From Flavobacteriales bacterium (lineage in GTDB: Bacteria; Bacteroidota; Bacteroidia; Flavobacteriales; Flavobacteriaceae), in NCBI GenBank assembly GCA_011524905.1, contig WTJI01000007.1:1-64000 (forward strand): a stretch of 64,000 bases of DNA, in the 5' to 3' direction. Positions within the stretch are counted from its first letter, which is position 1; each line of letters opens with the position of its first letter. The translations under genes were made by a program, and so were the position numbers. Positions 13,634 through 39,653 of the stretch are shown in pieces. The notes beneath the pieces were generated by a model. That model searched no databases, was not told where the DNA came from, and was given only the letters and a program-made list of their open reading frames with translations.

Positions 13634-13706
13634 ACGGGTTTAGCTCAGTTGGTAGAGCACTGGTCTCCAAAACCAGGTGTCGGGAGTTCGAGCCTCTCAA
13701 CCCGTG
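13634..13706 (+). tRNA. tRNA-Trp (anticodon CCA)
   Basis: 73 nt that fold as a cloverleaf: acceptor stem ACGGGTT with AACCCGT and discriminator G at 13706, D-arm GCTC...GAGC, anticodon stem CTGGT/ACCAG with loop CTCCAAA (anticodon CCA at 13667-13669), and T-arm GGGAG-TTCGAGC-CTC. The CCA tail is not encoded (the next bases are CAA). Position directly before secE is conserved in the phylum. Confidence 0.97.
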
Positions 13707-31804: not shown

Positions 31805-32581
31805 ATGCTTTTTCAATACTTGTTCACATTAATTTTATTTACTGTTTGGCCAACACCCTATCACGCAGACTGGGGACAAACAGGTCATAGGGTTGTAGGT
31901 GCTATTGCCGATACCCATCTGACCAAAAAAGCCCAAAGACAAATTGATTTTTTGCTGGACGGCCAGTCTCTCGCATTTGTTGCCACCTATGGCGACGATA
32001 TAAAATCTGATAGTTTGTATGATCGTTACAAACCTTGGCACTACATCAATTTTCCATTTGATGCAACATATGATGGTCAACAGACTAGCCCTGATGGAGA
32101 TCTGGCTCAAGGCATTGCATATTGTTTGAATCAACTAAAGAGCAAAAATAGTTCAAAGAAAGAAAAAGCATTTAGCTTAAAATTATTGGTCCATTTAGTA
32201 GGCGATCTCCATCAGCCACTACATATAGGTAAATCAGAAGATCGTGGAGGCAACCGATTTCAAGTGAATTGGTTTGGTAGAAAGACCAACTTACATCGCG
32301 TGTGGGACAGTCAAATGATTGATAGCTATCAGATGAGTTATTCAGAATTGGTCGAAAATAGAAAAAATCTAACGCCGCAACAGATCGCCCAAATCCAGCA
32401 GGGTACCGTTACCGAATGGATCAATGAAGTCCGCTTGTTAACTTTAGCGATTTATGAACAAACAAAGCAAGACGAAAACTTAAGCTACGCTTATCGTTAT
32501 CGATTTATGGACCAACTTAGAGAGCAATTACACAGAGGCGGGCTTCGTTTGGCCGTATTACTCAATGATGCTTTTAAATAA
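31805..32581 (+). CDS. S1/P1-family zinc nuclease, secreted
   Basis: 258 residues with a signal peptide that ends before DWGQTGHRVVGAIADTHLT. In this family the mature N-terminal tryptophan is a zinc ligand, and here the first mature residues Asp-Trp fit only if cleavage is next to Trp24. Further zinc ligands are in HYINFPFD, LVHLVGDLHQPLHIGKSEDRGGN and NLHRVWDSQMID. The enzyme degrades single-stranded DNA and RNA in the periplasm or medium, usually for phosphate scavenging. Its end overlaps that of the convergent AlkB-like gene by 8 bp. Confidence 0.93.
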   Translation: MLFQYLFTLILFTVWPTPYHADWGQTGHRVVGAIADTHLTKKAQRQIDFLLDGQSLAFVATYGDDIKSDSLYDRYKPWHYINFPFDATYDGQQTSPDGDLAQGIAYCLNQLKSKNSSKKEKAFSLKLLVHLVGDLHQPLHIGKSEDRGGNRFQVNWFGRKTNLHRVWDSQMIDSYQMSYSELVENRKNLTPQQIAQIQQGTVTEWINEVRLLTLAIYEQTKQDENLSYAYRYRFMDQLREQLHRGGLRLAVLLNDAFK

Positions 32582-33182
32582 GCTTACGAAAAGTTAGGTT
32601 AATTCTTGCTTTTTTTGGGCGGGCTGTTTTCGCAATTTGATGCACCCAGTATTCTTGCATAGCGCCCCCCATAATCAATAGACTTCCATGTTCCAACAGG
32701 ATTTTATAACGTTGGGTTTTCTTCGTACGGTGCTTAAAATGAAAATACCTAGATTCTCCTAGGCTGACAGATGCAATTCGTGGATGTGGCCCTAATTCTT
32801 TTTCATTGTCAGCATGCCAACCATTGCTGTCTTTGCCGTCTCGATACATGTTCAGTAAGACTGTATTATACGGGTGCGCATCAACAGTTTTTATTTGTTC
32901 TAAAATTTTGTGTAAAGTAGTAGTCATTGGATGTGGGTGCATCTCAATACCTGAATAGGTGTAGGCTTGGGTACTTTTTCCATAAAGGGCGGTCAATCGT
33001 GGTTGCATGTAGGTTTTACCAAAGACCGTGATAGGGTCGTGTTGCCAAGGGGTTTGTTCTTCGAGTATGCTAAATAAAGTTTCGGCATTAGCTGGTGTCC
33101 AAAAATTGGGATAATACAACAATTCCGCATCGGGTAAATCAGGTTTCCATGGGGTGTTTTCGGTAGCAAAAAGTTCAAGCAT
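32574..33182 (-). CDS. AlkB-like 2-oxoglutarate/Fe(II) dioxygenase
   Basis: 202 residues of the AlkB/ALKBH2-3 type. Iron ligands are His123 and Asp125 (GWHADNEKELGP) and His181 (EYWVHQIAK); the 2-oxoglutarate-binding segment RINLTFR lies at 193-199. The family removes alkyl adducts from DNA or RNA by oxidation, including 1-methyladenine and 3-methylcytosine. The start at 33182 gives the standard N-terminus, and the size is typical. It is followed, on the same strand, by a methyltransferase gene upstream (15 bp gap). Confidence 0.92.
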   Translation of the reverse strand: MLELFATENTPWKPDLPDAELLYYPNFWTPANAETLFSILEEQTPWQHDPITVFGKTYMQPRLTALYGKSTQAYTYSGIEMHPHPMTTTLHKILEQIKTVDAHPYNTVLLNMYRDGKDSNGWHADNEKELGPHPRIASVSLGESRYFHFKHRTKKTQRYKILLEHGSLLIMGGAMQEYWVHQIAKTARPKKARINLTFRKLI

Positions 33183-35664: not shown

Positions 35665-37542
35665 CTATTTGATTAGTTGCAAGCTTCTTTGTATGAAGGC
35701 AGTCAAGTCTTCTCCTTTCAGTAAGTTTTGAGACAGGCGCGCTAAATCTAGTGCTTGTTGGATCAAACGTTCCCTTTTTTTTGCAGTTCGAGTTTGCAAA
35801 ATCTGCCCAACCAAATCGTGATTTGTATTAACCAATAAAGTGTACATTTCAGGGAAACTACCCATCATGCCCCCACCCGTTTGCTGCATTTCTTTCATTC
35901 GACGCATAAATTCGGGCTGGGTCAATACAAAAGGTAGACTATTACTATCCATAGCGGTTAATTGAACAGTATATTGACTGTCAGAGACAACGTCTTCAAT
36001 CATGGGTTTGAGCTTGTCTTTTTCTTCATCTGAAAGTTTGGAAACCGTAGCTTCTTCTTTTTTAATCAGGTTTTCGATGGCATCTCCATCGACCCGAGCA
36101 AAGCTGATATTTTCTTTAGAAGTTTCCAGTTTTTGTATCAGGTGACTGATAATGGGTGAGTCGAGTAGAAGTACCGTGTAGTCTTTATCCTTTGCGGATT
36201 GAATATAGCTGTGCTGCGCATCTGTATCAGAAGCATATAACAAAATTAATTTGTCATCCTTATCCGTTTGCGCATCTTTAAGTTTTTCTTGGAGTTCTTC
36301 GAAAGTAAAATAATCTCCATCTGTAGTCGGGTATAAGGCAAATTTTTCTGCTTTTTCAAAAAACTTGTCTTCACTCAACATACCATATTCGATCACCACT
36401 TTGATATCGTTCCACTTTTCTTCAAAAGCTTTTCGATCTTTTTTGAATAAACTGCTAAGCTTGTCTGCAACTTTACGGGTGATATAATTACTAATTTTTT
36501 TAACCGCCCCATCCGCTTGTAAATAACTCCGAGACACATTGAGAGGGATATCGGGTGAATCAATTACCCCACGGAGAAGTGTTAAAAATTCTGGTACAAT
36601 GCCTTCAACATTATCAGTGACAAAAACTTGATTTTGATACAGTTGAATACGATCTTTTTGGATATTTAGATCATTATTCAATTTAGGGAAGTATAATATA
36701 CCAGTCAGATTAAAAGGATAATCAACATTAAGATGAATATGAAATAAGGGTTCTTCAAATTGCATGGGATACAATTCTCGATAAAAACCTTTGTAGTCCT
36801 CCTCATTTAGATCGGCAGGGGTCTTAGTCCAAGCTGGATCGGGGTTGTTGATGATATTATCAACAGTTTTGGTTTCAGGTTTGGCATCTTCTGCGGCATC
36901 GTTAGGCTGGGGAAGCGTTTCCTCTCGGGTTCCAAATTTAATTGGAACAGGCATAAACTTATTGTACTTTGTTAAAAGCTCACTAATCCGAGCTTCCTCT
37001 AAGAATTCTTTCGAATCTTTATCAATGTGTAAGATGATTTCTGTACCGCGTTCTTTTTTATCTGATTTTTTGAGTTCGTACTCTGGGGAACCGTCGCAAA
37101 CCCAGTGGGCAGCTGGCTCATCTTTATATGATTTTGTTATTATTTCTACTTCTTTAGCAACCATAAAAGCAGAGTAAAACCCTAGGCCAAAATGTCCAAT
37201 GATTCCCGAATCTTTGGCACTTTCTTTATATTTCTCTAAAAATTCTTCAGCACCAGAAAAGGCCACCTCATTAATGTACTTGTTGACTTCATCGGCCGTC
37301 ATTCCAACCCCTTTGTCAATAATGTGTAGTTTTTTTCCTTTTTTGTCAATCTTAACTTCCAAGGTCAAATCGCCTAGATCTCCTTTGACCTCTCCTAAAC
37401 TACTCAGGTGCTTTAGTTTATTTGTAGCATCAGTCGCATTGGAAATCAATTCACGAAGGAAGATTTCATGGTCACTGTACAAAAACTTTTTGATTAGCGG
37501 GAATATATTCTCTACCGCTACATTGATTTTACCTTTTGACAT
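35665..37542 (-). CDS. htpG: Chaperone protein HtpG (Hsp90)
   Basis: 625 residues from the ATG at 37542 (MSKGKINVAVENIFPLIKKF). In-frame codons upstream are not part of the family. The GHKL ATPase motifs are LRELISNATDATNKL, DKGVGM, and GHFGLGFYSAFMVAKEV; the middle domain has SLYLQA-like SRSYLQADGAVKKIS, and the C-terminal dimerisation domain is complete (about 500-625). It is a stress chaperone that folds client proteins with ATP. A CIRCE-like inverted repeat lies at 37588-37612 upstream. The frame is intact with no truncation. Confidence 0.98.
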   Translation of the reverse strand: MSKGKINVAVENIFPLIKKFLYSDHEIFLRELISNATDATNKLKHLSSLGEVKGDLGDLTLEVKIDKKGKKLHIIDKGVGMTADEVNKYINEVAFSGAEEFLEKYKESAKDSGIIGHFGLGFYSAFMVAKEVEIITKSYKDEPAAHWVCDGSPEYELKKSDKKERGTEIILHIDKDSKEFLEEARISELLTKYNKFMPVPIKFGTREETLPQPNDAAEDAKPETKTVDNIINNPDPAWTKTPADLNEEDYKGFYRELYPMQFEEPLFHIHLNVDYPFNLTGILYFPKLNNDLNIQKDRIQLYQNQVFVTDNVEGIVPEFLTLLRGVIDSPDIPLNVSRSYLQADGAVKKISNYITRKVADKLSSLFKKDRKAFEEKWNDIKVVIEYGMLSEDKFFEKAEKFALYPTTDGDYFTFEELQEKLKDAQTDKDDKLILLYASDTDAQHSYIQSAKDKDYTVLLLDSPIISHLIQKLETSKENISFARVDGDAIENLIKKEEATVSKLSDEEKDKLKPMIEDVVSDSQYTVQLTAMDSNSLPFVLTQPEFMRRMKEMQQTGGGMMGSFPEMYTLLVNTNHDLVGQILQTRTAKKRERLIQQALDLARLSQNLLKGEDLTAFIQRSLQLIK

Positions 37543-37587
37543 TTTATTAAATTTTGATTGTACTGGACAAAAAAAATACCAAACCCG

Positions 37588-37612
37588 CAAGCGTGACAGA
37601 TTGACACGCTTG
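37588..37612. promoter_or_regulatory. CIRCE-like inverted repeat in the htpG control region
   Basis: CAAGCGTG (37588-37595) and CACGCTTG (37605-37612) form an 8-bp perfect inverted repeat with a 9-nt spacer, the same arm-N9-arm design as CIRCE (TTAGCACTC-N9-GAGTGCTAA) although the bases differ. It lies 46 bp before the htpG start, just upstream of a minus-strand TATTTTTTTTG stretch that may be the -7 region. It may control htpG, the divergent 37692 gene, or both. Confidence 0.5.
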
Positions 37613-37666
37613 AATTTTAACAGAAATTTATTGTTTAAATAAAACAATAAATAGTTAAACGTTTGT

Positions 37667-37674
37667 TACTTTTG
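37667..37674 (+). promoter_or_regulatory. -7 box ahead of the TetR-like gene
   Basis: TACTTTTG matches TAnnTTTG and ends 17 bp before the ATG at 37692. No clear TTG at the usual spacing was seen. Confidence 0.5.
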
Positions 37675-37691
37675 CACTAAATAAAAAACCA

Positions 37692-38342
37692 ATGGATAAG
37701 AACGAATTACGCGCTACTATTCTGAGTCAATACACTAATCATGTATTGGAACACGAAAGCTATCCCAAATCAGTTTTTAAGTTTTGCAAAGTAGCAAAGA
37801 TGGAAGAAAAAGATTTCTACTCCGTTTTTGCCTCTTTGGACGCCGTTCGCGAGTTTATTTGGGAAGCTTTTTTTACAAATACAATGACGGTTTTGGACAA
37901 GGACAAAGCCTATAAAAAAGCAAATCGTAAGGATAAACTATTGAGTTTTTACTTCACTTTTTTTGAAGTTATGTTACTCAATAGGTCCTATGTATTGTTT
38001 GCTTTAAACCACGAAAAGAAAAGTTTACAAGATTTGGTTTACCTCAAAGCACTTCGGAAACATTTTAAAGCATTTGCTACTGATTTGATTGAAGAAGGGA
38101 ATGCCGATAAAGAAAGCCGCTGGCGACAGCACCCCCCTCAGTTATTTTCCGAAGCCGCTTGGGTGCAACTCATGTTCTTAATGCGATTTTGGATTGACGA
38201 TCGATCAGAGAACTTCGAAAAAACAGATGCTGCTATTGAAAAATCAGTCAACACCGCATTTGATGTTTTTGATAATACGCCACTAGATTCTATTTTGGAT
38301 TTAGGGAAATTCCTATGGAAAGAAAAAATAGCGAGTGCTTAA
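37692..38342 (+). CDS. TetR-like protein of the Bacteroidota ABC1-kinase pair
   Basis: 216 residues. The N-terminal part (RATILSQYTNHVLEHESYPKSVFKFCKVAKMEEKDFYSVFASLDAVREFIW, read in parts) has the length and helix order of a TetR helix-turn-helix domain, in particular the VFKFCKVAKMEEKDFYSVF segment. The C-terminal ligand domain is helical. The glycines usual in the TetR turn are replaced, so DNA binding is less certain. It ends directly against the TTG start of the ABC1-kinase gene, and the tight pairing suggests they act in one process. Ligand is unknown. Confidence 0.7.
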   Translation: MDKNELRATILSQYTNHVLEHESYPKSVFKFCKVAKMEEKDFYSVFASLDAVREFIWEAFFTNTMTVLDKDKAYKKANRKDKLLSFYFTFFEVMLLNRSYVLFALNHEKKSLQDLVYLKALRKHFKAFATDLIEEGNADKESRWRQHPPQLFSEAAWVQLMFLMRFWIDDRSENFEKTDAAIEKSVNTAFDVFDNTPLDSILDLGKFLWKEKIASA

Positions 38343-39653
38343 TTGAAAACACTAGACCACATACCAACCAATAAAATTGAACGAGCAACCAAGCTGGTAG
38401 CTACCGGTGTTAAAGTTGGTGGAAATTACCTCAAATACTACGGTGGTAAGGCTTTGAATAGAGAGGTTTCCAAAGAACAGTTAGACGAAGAAAACGCGAA
38501 GGATATTTATGATGGGCTGAAAAGCCTCAAAGGAAGCGCTCTGAAAATGGCTCAAATGCTGAGCATGGAAAAAAATATGTTGCCCCGTGCTTATGTTGAG
38601 CAATTTAGTCTTGCACAGTTTTCGGTGCCGCCTCTCTCTGCTCCACTTGTCAAACAACTGATTCGGAAAAATTTAGGAGCTGACCCAGAGGTCATTTTTG
38701 ATACGTTTGCTACCCAATCTGTAAACGCTGCCAGTATCGGACAGGTACATCAGGCAACGAAGAATGGGAAAAAACTTGCTGTGAAAATTCAATATCCTGG
38801 GGTAGCAAACAGTATCGGCTCTGATTTGAGTATTGTTAAGCCAGTAGCCATAAGAATGTTCAACTTACAGGGGCAAGATGTAGATAAGTTTTTTAAAGAA
38901 GTTGAAAACAAGCTATTAGAAGAAACCGACTACGAACTCGAACTGAAACAAAGCCAGCAAATTACCCAAGAGTGTTCGGTGGTGCCCAATATGTTATTTC
39001 CGAATTATTATCCGGAATGGTCTCGAAAAAGGATTTTGACGATGGATTGGATGGAGGGTATTCATTTGTCTGAATATACAGAACAAGAGAATACAAACCC
39101 AGAGACCAATCAGAAGCTGGGCCAAACACTTTGGGATTTTTATATGTTTCAGATGCATGGCTTAAAAAAAGTCCATGCAGATCCGCATCCAGGCAATTTT
39201 TTGGTATCACCTAACAATGAACTAATCGCTTTGGATTTTGGTTGCATCAAGGAAATACCAGAAAATTTTTACAAGCCTTATTTTGAACTTTCAAGGCCAG
39301 AAAATTTAGAAAATGAGCAAGCCTTCCAAAACATTCTCACCGAACTAGAAATTTTATTACCCAATGACGGTGACAAGGAAATTAAATTCTTTACGGCACT
39401 TTTTCATCGGATGCTTACCCTGTTTACCCAACCCTTCCACAGTGATAGTTTTGATTTTTCTGATCCTGTCTTTTGGAACCAGATTGCTTCCTTAAGCGAA
39501 GAATTTACCCAGGACAAAGAGTGGCGTAAAATGAATGGTAATCGTGGATCAGAGCATTTCATATATATCAACCGGACATTTTTTGGTTTGTACAGTTTAC
39601 TGTTTGATCTCAAAGCCAAAGTCAACATATATAATTACATGAATTTTGTTTAA
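38343..39653 (+). CDS. ABC1/AarF (UbiB-family) atypical kinase
   Basis: 436 residues beginning at TTG 38343, directly after the stop of the TetR-like gene; the N-terminal helix KTLDHIPTNKIERATKLVATGVK matches family members and leaves no later good ATG. The signature KGSALKMAQMLSME corresponds to the KxGQ motif (with the alanine-for-glycine start region usual in the UbiB family), then AASIGQVHQAT, AVKIQYPGV, ETDYELEL, and the metal site VHADPHPGNF and ALDFGCIKE. UbiB proteins are atypical kinases/ATPases tied to quinone or lipid metabolism. A menaquinone-related role is inferred only. Confidence 0.88.
   Translation: MKTLDHIPTNKIERATKLVATGVKVGGNYLKYYGGKALNREVSKEQLDEENAKDIYDGLKSLKGSALKMAQMLSMEKNMLPRAYVEQFSLAQFSVPPLSAPLVKQLIRKNLGADPEVIFDTFATQSVNAASIGQVHQATKNGKKLAVKIQYPGVANSIGSDLSIVKPVAIRMFNLQGQDVDKFFKEVENKLLEETDYELELKQSQQITQECSVVPNMLFPNYYPEWSRKRILTMDWMEGIHLSEYTEQENTNPETNQKLGQTLWDFYMFQMHGLKKVHADPHPGNFLVSPNNELIALDFGCIKEIPENFYKPYFELSRPENLENEQAFQNILTELEILLPNDGDKEIKFFTALFHRMLTLFTQPFHSDSFDFSDPVFWNQIASLSEEFTQDKEWRKMNGNRGSEHFIYINRTFFGLYSLLFDLKAKVNIYNYMNFV

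Follow-up and report, generated by a model that had tools for sequence, protein, structure and literature searches.

What reads the inverted repeat that lies between htpG and a divergent TetR-like gene in a Flavobacteriales genome? The first-pass annotation of the 64,000-nucleotide stretch that we analysed (the window) had described the repeat as having the arm-N9-arm geometry of CIRCE with different bases, and had offered it as the operator either of a heat-shock repressor or of the divergent TetR-like protein. We argue here, from comparison of related genomes, that the inner 13 bp of the repeat are probably the enhancer of a dedicated sigma-54 heat-shock activator (EBP) encoded in the cluster miaB-EBP-lptE-secG-groES-groEL. 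The features of the locus are collected in Table 1.

Table 1. Features of the htpG-tetR region, in window coordinates
Feature	Position	Strand	Remark
Inverted repeat CAAGCGTG-N9-CACGCTTG	37588..37612	.	Repeat described in the first-pass annotation
Conserved core TGACAGATTGACA (TGNCANNNTGNCA)	37594..37606	.	Candidate UAS (enhancer) at which the sigma-54 heat-shock activator would bind
Sigma-54-type -24/-12 element of htpG, TGGTATTTTTTTTGTC	37566..37581	-	12 bp from the core
htpG (Hsp90)	35665..37542	-	Proposed target gene
TetR_C_23 family gene (tetR)	37692..38342	+	Divergent neighbour; unlikely reader of the repeat
Proposed TetR operator, TGTTTAA-N16-TTAAACG	37632..37661	.	Final base differs from consensus A
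ABC1 atypical kinase gene	38343..39653	+	Downstream of tetR; context only

The conserved part of the repeat

The repeat is present as described and occurs once in the 1.98-Mb assembly. Perfect 8-bp arms around a 9-nt spacer with at least 5 G+C are found four times in the window against a mean of 0.05 in 20 shuffles, and the repeat thus stands above chance, although this comparison is silent on which part of it matters (our shuffles are random walks on dinucleotide transitions rather than exact dinucleotide shuffles). Two of the other three such repeats, at 1231-1255 and 1413-1437, have arms ACCGCTAG and GTCGCTAG with 9-nt spacers and look by eye like terminator-like hairpins.

To see which bases are kept among relatives, we used 60 genomes of the family, 38 of which encode the TetR-like gene. 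Thirty of these were taken as loci, the window's own included, and in 14 of the 30, again with the window, htpG lies divergently upstream; these form our unbiased htpG set. The strict 13-mer TGNCANNNTGNCA occurs in 13 of the 14 (shuffle mean 0.04), the exception, L008, being one letter off, and the conserved block read towards htpG consists of TGNCANNNTGNCA, 12-13 bp and then TGGTAYTTTWTTTG. A search of all 60 genomes with the htpG-type pattern returned 51 sites in 41 genomes versus 9 hits for the reversed pattern. Thirty pattern sites were taken as loci, and a readable htpG lies downstream in 26 of them, the other four (L037, L038, L049 and L061) having no readable htpG upstream region. In the resulting 39 htpG sites (13 + 26, the 26 having been found with the pattern itself), the outer six bases of each arm are fully paired only in the window's own copy, and on this count we rejected the view that the 8-N9-8 arms function as a whole. 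Judged by these comparisons, the conserved unit is the inner 13-mer, smaller and differently bounded than the reported arms. The second and last TGNCANNNTGNCA match in the window is at 32807-32819, within the open reading frame 32574-33182; a count of two in 64 kb does not exceed chance.

These results bear directly on the resemblance to CIRCE. An operator like CIRCE, read by a heat-shock repressor of the HrcA type and functional over its full 8-N9-8 arms, would match the geometry of the window copy. That geometry rests on the outer arms, however, and none of the 38 other htpG sites has them in full. The CIRCE sequence is TTAGCACTC-N9-GAGTGCTAA, and across 90 htpG/tetR, groES and dnaK loci its best match has 5 mismatches of 18 (6 in the window), so that identity with the CIRCE operator fails on sequence. 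We regard an HrcA-type operator as exceedingly improbable. What the locus shares with the CIRCE/HrcA system is an inverted repeat with a 9-nt spacer at chaperone promoters; it differs in sequence, in its 13-bp conserved unit and in its sigma-54-type context.

The TetR-like neighbour

Because the repeat sits in the shared intergenic region, it had also been proposed as an operator of the divergent TetR-like protein (the 37692 product). This gene has a different conserved palindrome of its own: TGTTTAA-N16-TTAAACA, slightly loosened, lies upstream of tetR in 24 of the 30 loci (window included), namely 10 of the 14 with htpG beside tetR and 14 of the 16 in which htpG was not found there. It is likely the autoregulatory operator of the TetR_C_23 gene, as its recurrence in these loci suggests. 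Conservation of the core does not go with tetR whatever gene lies on the other side; the core follows htpG and dnaK, and in 7 of the 12 loci listed it stays beside htpG although a tetR match was not found there. Given the separate palindrome, we rejected the TetR operator proposal for the 37588 repeat, which now appears highly improbable.

In four relatives (L003, L005, L006 and L008, the last less alike) the stretch between htpG and tetR includes an additional conserved leader, TGCTATGAAAAAG ... TTATTGGTTAGGTTGT, with a terminator-like hairpin after it; this may encode a leader peptide or a small transcript located between the operator and tetR. In the window, we discarded an RNA hairpin or leader reading of the repeat, as the core precedes both inferred transcripts and the only Rfam match at the gathering threshold is a tRNA at 13634.

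Promoter context of the core

At htpG, a gap of 12-13 bp separates the core from a sigma-54-type -24/-12 element downstream of it. This element is present in all 14 upstream regions of the unbiased set (shuffle mean 0.33), and sigma-54 spacing would place the htpG transcription start near 37555. The arrangement recurs at dnaK, where the upstream regions of 30 genomes contain the 13-mer in 30, the element in 30 and both at 11-14 bp in 29, against shuffle means of 0.09 of 30 for the 13-mer and 0.65 for the element. As a control, groEL upstream regions contain the 13-mer in 0 of 34. Since the element search demanded TGG(C/T)A-N7-TG, the invariance of these letters carries no weight, and the evidence lies in the presence of the element; a T just ahead of the final TG, which lies outside the search demand, is found in all 44 dnaK and htpG elements. 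RpoN is encoded in the genome (G000; PF04552, 4.6e-53). A sigma-54-type promoter context makes an activator likelier than a repressor, and the earlier suggestion of a heat-shock repressor is thus best kept in part: the core appears to mark heat-shock control by a regulator that we found nowhere described, while repression is the less favoured mode.

Two features of these promoters count against an enhancer. First, the letter after the -12 G departs from the consensus TGGCAC-N5-TTGC, being A in 23 of 30 dnaK and 8 of 14 htpG elements; C stands there in 9 of 18 groES, 3 of 14 htpG and 1 of 30 dnaK elements. Second, sigma-54 enhancers usually lie 80-150 bp upstream, and the 12-13 bp gap between core and -24 block at htpG and dnaK, which puts the core at about -39 to -51 from the inferred start, is far below that norm. 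The core is farther from the promoter for full groES sites and in the reduced genomes described below.

A sigma-70-type factor might instead read the site together with a TGG-N8-TTG element, with the 13-mer inside an extended -33 region. Known RpoD motifs of Bacteroidota are TTTG and TAnnTTTG, and by eye a TTTG does stand 19 nt upstream of TATTTTTT in some htpG promoters; the prevailing A after the -12 G would also fit. Such a factor would nonetheless leave unexplained the sigma-54-spaced element at every dnaK and every unbiased htpG promoter, set against the low shuffle means given above, and the disappearance of the element where RpoN has been lost although the genes remain. We therefore consider a sigma-70-type reader very unlikely.

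Other chaperone genes

The first-pass annotation had suggested looking for the motif at heat-shock genes of related genomes. The core does recur there: it precedes htpG and dnaK, in the majority of the clusters it precedes groES as well, and looser copies stand before some clpB genes. The outer arms of the repeat do not recur in full. At groES, a TGGCA-type element is present in 18 of 30 upstream regions, with a half site 11-14 bp above the element in 16 of 30, and in 17 of 24 clusters the secG-groES interval contains a full 13-mer. We count the presence of the element in only 18 of 30, and the 7 of 24 clusters without a full site, against the enhancer. By eye, in the intergenic regions of L063-L092, the full TGNCANNNTGNCA site of groES often forms part of the stem in a terminator-like hairpin that follows secG (TGCCAGCTT..TGACAAGCTGGCA), where one sequence perhaps serves two functions.

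For clpB, called by eye from the N-terminus, the strict site is absent from 10 of 10 upstream regions, and relaxed sites followed by a TGG-type element occur in 5 of 10. With relaxed sites only, we grade clpB as a weaker target. Neighbouring ClpC-like genes, also called by eye and taken as a control, have the site in 0 of 10. In three of the ten clpB regions (L287, L297 and L301) there are two copies of the site 32 bp apart, about three helical turns; a second copy in L289 is looser still. In the window's own genome, groES has the element, but clpB has no strict site, and this lack weighs against the enhancer.

The candidate activator and its operon

EBP combines a PF00158 AAA+ domain with a C-terminal PF02954 Fis-type HTH (3.3e-14), with about 110 residues of linker separating the lid from the HTH; a receiver domain was not detected. 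The GAFTGA loop and the helix SERTLYRKIKQ are identical in 14 of 14 proteins, and GSFTGA replaces GAFTGA in 7 of 11 aligned members from the reduced family f64. Among the 25 NCBIfam models listed EBP reaches the cut-off of none, and its 266.3 bits against the PspF model TIGR02974 (cut-off 443.55) indicate that it is not PspF. The AlphaFold model (mean pLDDT 51) is too poor for use. Strong PF00158 matches are found in all 30 genomes searched; since all 14 control genomes also have a match to this domain, weak ones in this search say little.

In 24 genomes the gene order is miaB-EBP-lptE-TPR-secG-groES-groEL. These clusters were chosen for the adjacency of EBP and groES, and the two genes are apart in G009 and G023, points that we hold against the enhancer. 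The 13-mer lies close to the start of miaB, which opens the operon, in 22 of 23 covered clusters (miaB starts were extrapolated from the query, and in L179 the miaB upstream region is not covered), and within the cluster loci it was found nowhere besides the miaB start and groES. The one cluster with an imperfect miaB copy is that of the window's own genome, again to the detriment of the enhancer. By eye, the promoter at miaB looks RpoD-type in some genomes, with the site overlapping its -33 region, and EBP may thus repress itself, as PspF represses its own promoter.

A second activator, with receiver and AAA+ domains and 387 amino acids, is encoded at both loci read, L156 (1261-2421) and L177 (1084-2247); in the L156 protein a DNA-binding domain was not detected.

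Retention and loss in reduced genomes

Of 395 genomes of the order, 372 contain an EBP-model match. Genomes of about 600 kb from genus g229 have exactly one each among the matches listed (E about 1e-169 to 1e-190), and among the genomes listed a match is found in some of about 300 kb and in none of six g283 genomes of about 200 kb. These small genomes offer a view of which components are kept together. In the reduced family f64 (25 genomes), RpoN (PF04552) is present in 15 and absent from 10. EBP is found in all 15 RpoN-containing genomes, its gene no more than 1.5 kb upstream of groES in 14 and 1.6 kb in the fifteenth; nine of the RpoN-lacking genomes have no EBP, and the tenth, G552, has a weak match to the EBP model (7.7e-46).

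The sites and elements follow the same division. At dnaK, the site (7 or 8 of 8 letters) is present in 12 of 15 RpoN-containing versus 0 of 10 RpoN-lacking genomes; for the -24/-12 element the counts are 13 of 15 and 0 of 10. At groES, the site is present in 13 of 15 versus 0 of 9 and the element in 10 of 15 versus 0 of 9, the denominator of nine reflecting G668, an RpoN-lacking genome without a groES match. The element search in this family permitted 6-7 nt between the blocks; where both are present, the gap from site to -24 block is 23-88 bp. RpoN, EBP, the sites and the -24/-12 elements are thus for the most part retained or lost jointly. The RpoN-lacking genomes need 3 changes on a DnaK tree (bootstrap 2-3), with a single origin still formally allowed. 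The promoters of RpoN-lacking genomes are very AT-rich, so that motif loss may partly be decay, which we again count against the enhancer.

The main rival to the enhancer is a second protein on the same site: the 13-mer could be read by a different repressor or activator that is co-inherited with sigma-54 chaperone promoters, EBP itself acting in solution or through a site elsewhere. Like the operator of a repressor, the site abuts the promoter, and the second conserved activator, with no DNA-binding domain detected, could act from solution. A different reader accords poorly with the recurrence of the site at EBP's own operon and with the way in which the site follows the presence of EBP in reduced genomes with just one match to the EBP model. 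Moreover, the long and variable gaps in those genomes, together with the paired copies at three clpB genes, suit an enhancer. We therefore judge a different reader of the 13-mer to be unlikely, if still deserving of serious consideration.

A possible mechanism and its relation to known systems

If EBP does read the 13-mer as an enhancer, a simple sequence of events can be proposed. EBP, an AAA+ protein with a Fis-type HTH and no receiver domain, would bind the 13-mer just upstream of the -24/-12 element and would use ATP to open the complex of RNA polymerase with sigma-54. Its targets would be htpG, dnaK, grpE and groESL, with clpB a probable addition and trxA a further one in some genomes. 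At its own operon, where an RpoD-type promoter is seen by eye in some genomes, the site over the -33 region would permit self-repression. Binding of EBP to the 13-mer and the dependence of transcription on it are what we infer from the conserved arrangement; heat would presumably be the signal, and the mode of its sensing is conjectural in the same degree.

EBP resembles PspF of Escherichia coli, an AAA+ protein with a C-terminal Fis-type HTH and no N-terminal receiver. Like PspF, it would activate sigma-54 stress promoters and might repress a sigma-70-type promoter of its own; it differs in its linker of about 110 residues, its chaperone targets and the closeness of its site to the -24 box (12-13 bp for dnaK and htpG). 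The proposed gene set also resembles the RpoH (sigma-32) regulon, which likewise comprises dnaK, grpE, groESL, htpG, clpB and hsp20; here, a -24/-12 element with a neighbouring palindrome takes the place of a sigma-32 promoter.

In the available part of PMC8762339, the Chlamydia trachomatis hrcA-grpE-dnaK operon has tandem sigma-66 and sigma-54 promoters, with AtoC as activator. This is similar to our proposal in that a chaperone operon altered in heat shock is read by sigma-54 with an activator, and differs in that the main control there is HrcA-CIRCE with the housekeeping factor, the activator belongs to a two-component system (AtoS-AtoC) and rpoN goes down on heat shock (PMC8762339, same part).

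For Bacteroidota, the available part of a position-weight study (PMC12316311) reports that GroEL, GroES, GrpE, DnaJ, DnaK and IbpA are enriched for predicted sigma-54 promoters in Planctomycetota and Bacteroidota, most of all in Flavobacteriia, and HSP90 in Bacteroidia; it also cites sigma-54-dependent transcription of GrpE and GroES to a Blattabacterium genome paper (its reference 80). Sigma-54 control of Bacteroidota chaperones has thus already been predicted and is not new. That part of PMC12316311 gives no enhancer sequence and assigns no activator, and in the open-access literature that we searched we found neither this enhancer and its activator nor any other heat-shock regulator for Bacteroidota. 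What we observe here is the set of conserved sites with their promoter element, the genes that carry them, the linkage to EBP and the joint retention and loss.

Insect symbionts provide a further point of contact. According to the accessible part of PMC3971599, Walczuchella, Uzinura and Blattabacterium retain RpoN, which is called unusual there and tentatively tied to nitrogen; one entry of 'Absent' in the RpoN row of its table we take to be Sulcia. Chaperone transcription would be an alternative reason why some reduced insect symbionts keep RpoN.

Distribution among Bacteroidota

How widely might such control extend? We scanned 296 genomes of the phylum with a strict dnaK-type pattern (the 13-mer, 12-13 bp, then TGGCA-N6-TTGA), which gave 25 sites in 22 genomes and none for the reversed pattern. 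The genes downstream are dnaK (9), grpE (5), htpG (4), thioredoxin (4), hsp20 (1) and rhomboid (1), with none found at one site. Within the same family 9 of 30 genomes have a site; the figures are 0 of 6 in the rest of the order, 11 of 37 in the rest of the class and 2 of 223 in other classes. The strict pattern misses most genomes, and its matches are almost all at stress genes. That 274 of the 296, including 21 of the 30 from the same family, have no match counts against the enhancer.

Among the best 80 of 588 named loci, a site lies no more than 300 bp from miaB in 27 of 30 linked loci and from groES in 17 of 23, with 15 sites in the remaining 636 kb. Linked loci in this set include, by record title, what we take to be Flavobacteriia, Chitinophagia, Sphingobacteriia and Cytophagia. 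The 19 loci titled as Bacteroidales or members of that order show linkage to miaB or groES in none and the 13-mer somewhere in 5, which again tells against the enhancer.

On a broader reading, which we consider evenly balanced between holding and failing, heat-shock control in Flavobacteria and many further Bacteroidota would rest on one sigma-54 activator, with a promoter-proximal enhancer and an autorepressed operon, rather than on HrcA or a heat-shock sigma factor; reduced insect symbionts would keep RpoN and their single activator because chaperone transcription needs both, and lineages losing RpoN would have rewired their chaperone promoters. If so, heat-shock control in flavobacteria and many of their relatives would differ from that of the usual model bacteria. 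Many Bacteroidota would then run their chaperones through a dedicated sigma-54 activator, where Chlamydia, the nearest case that we found, uses sigma-54 beside HrcA (PMC8762339, available part). The enhancer reading has the further merit of naming one gene and one 13-bp site as a testable regulator and target.

Two smaller observations came from the loci read. L316, from a record titled Rhizobium sp. Q54 (a metagenome bin), contains a flavobacterial-type EBP cluster; the bin is probably mixed or carries a wrong label. Thioredoxin genes are preceded by the full module in four genomes of the class (L139-L142), which suggests a wider stress regulon.
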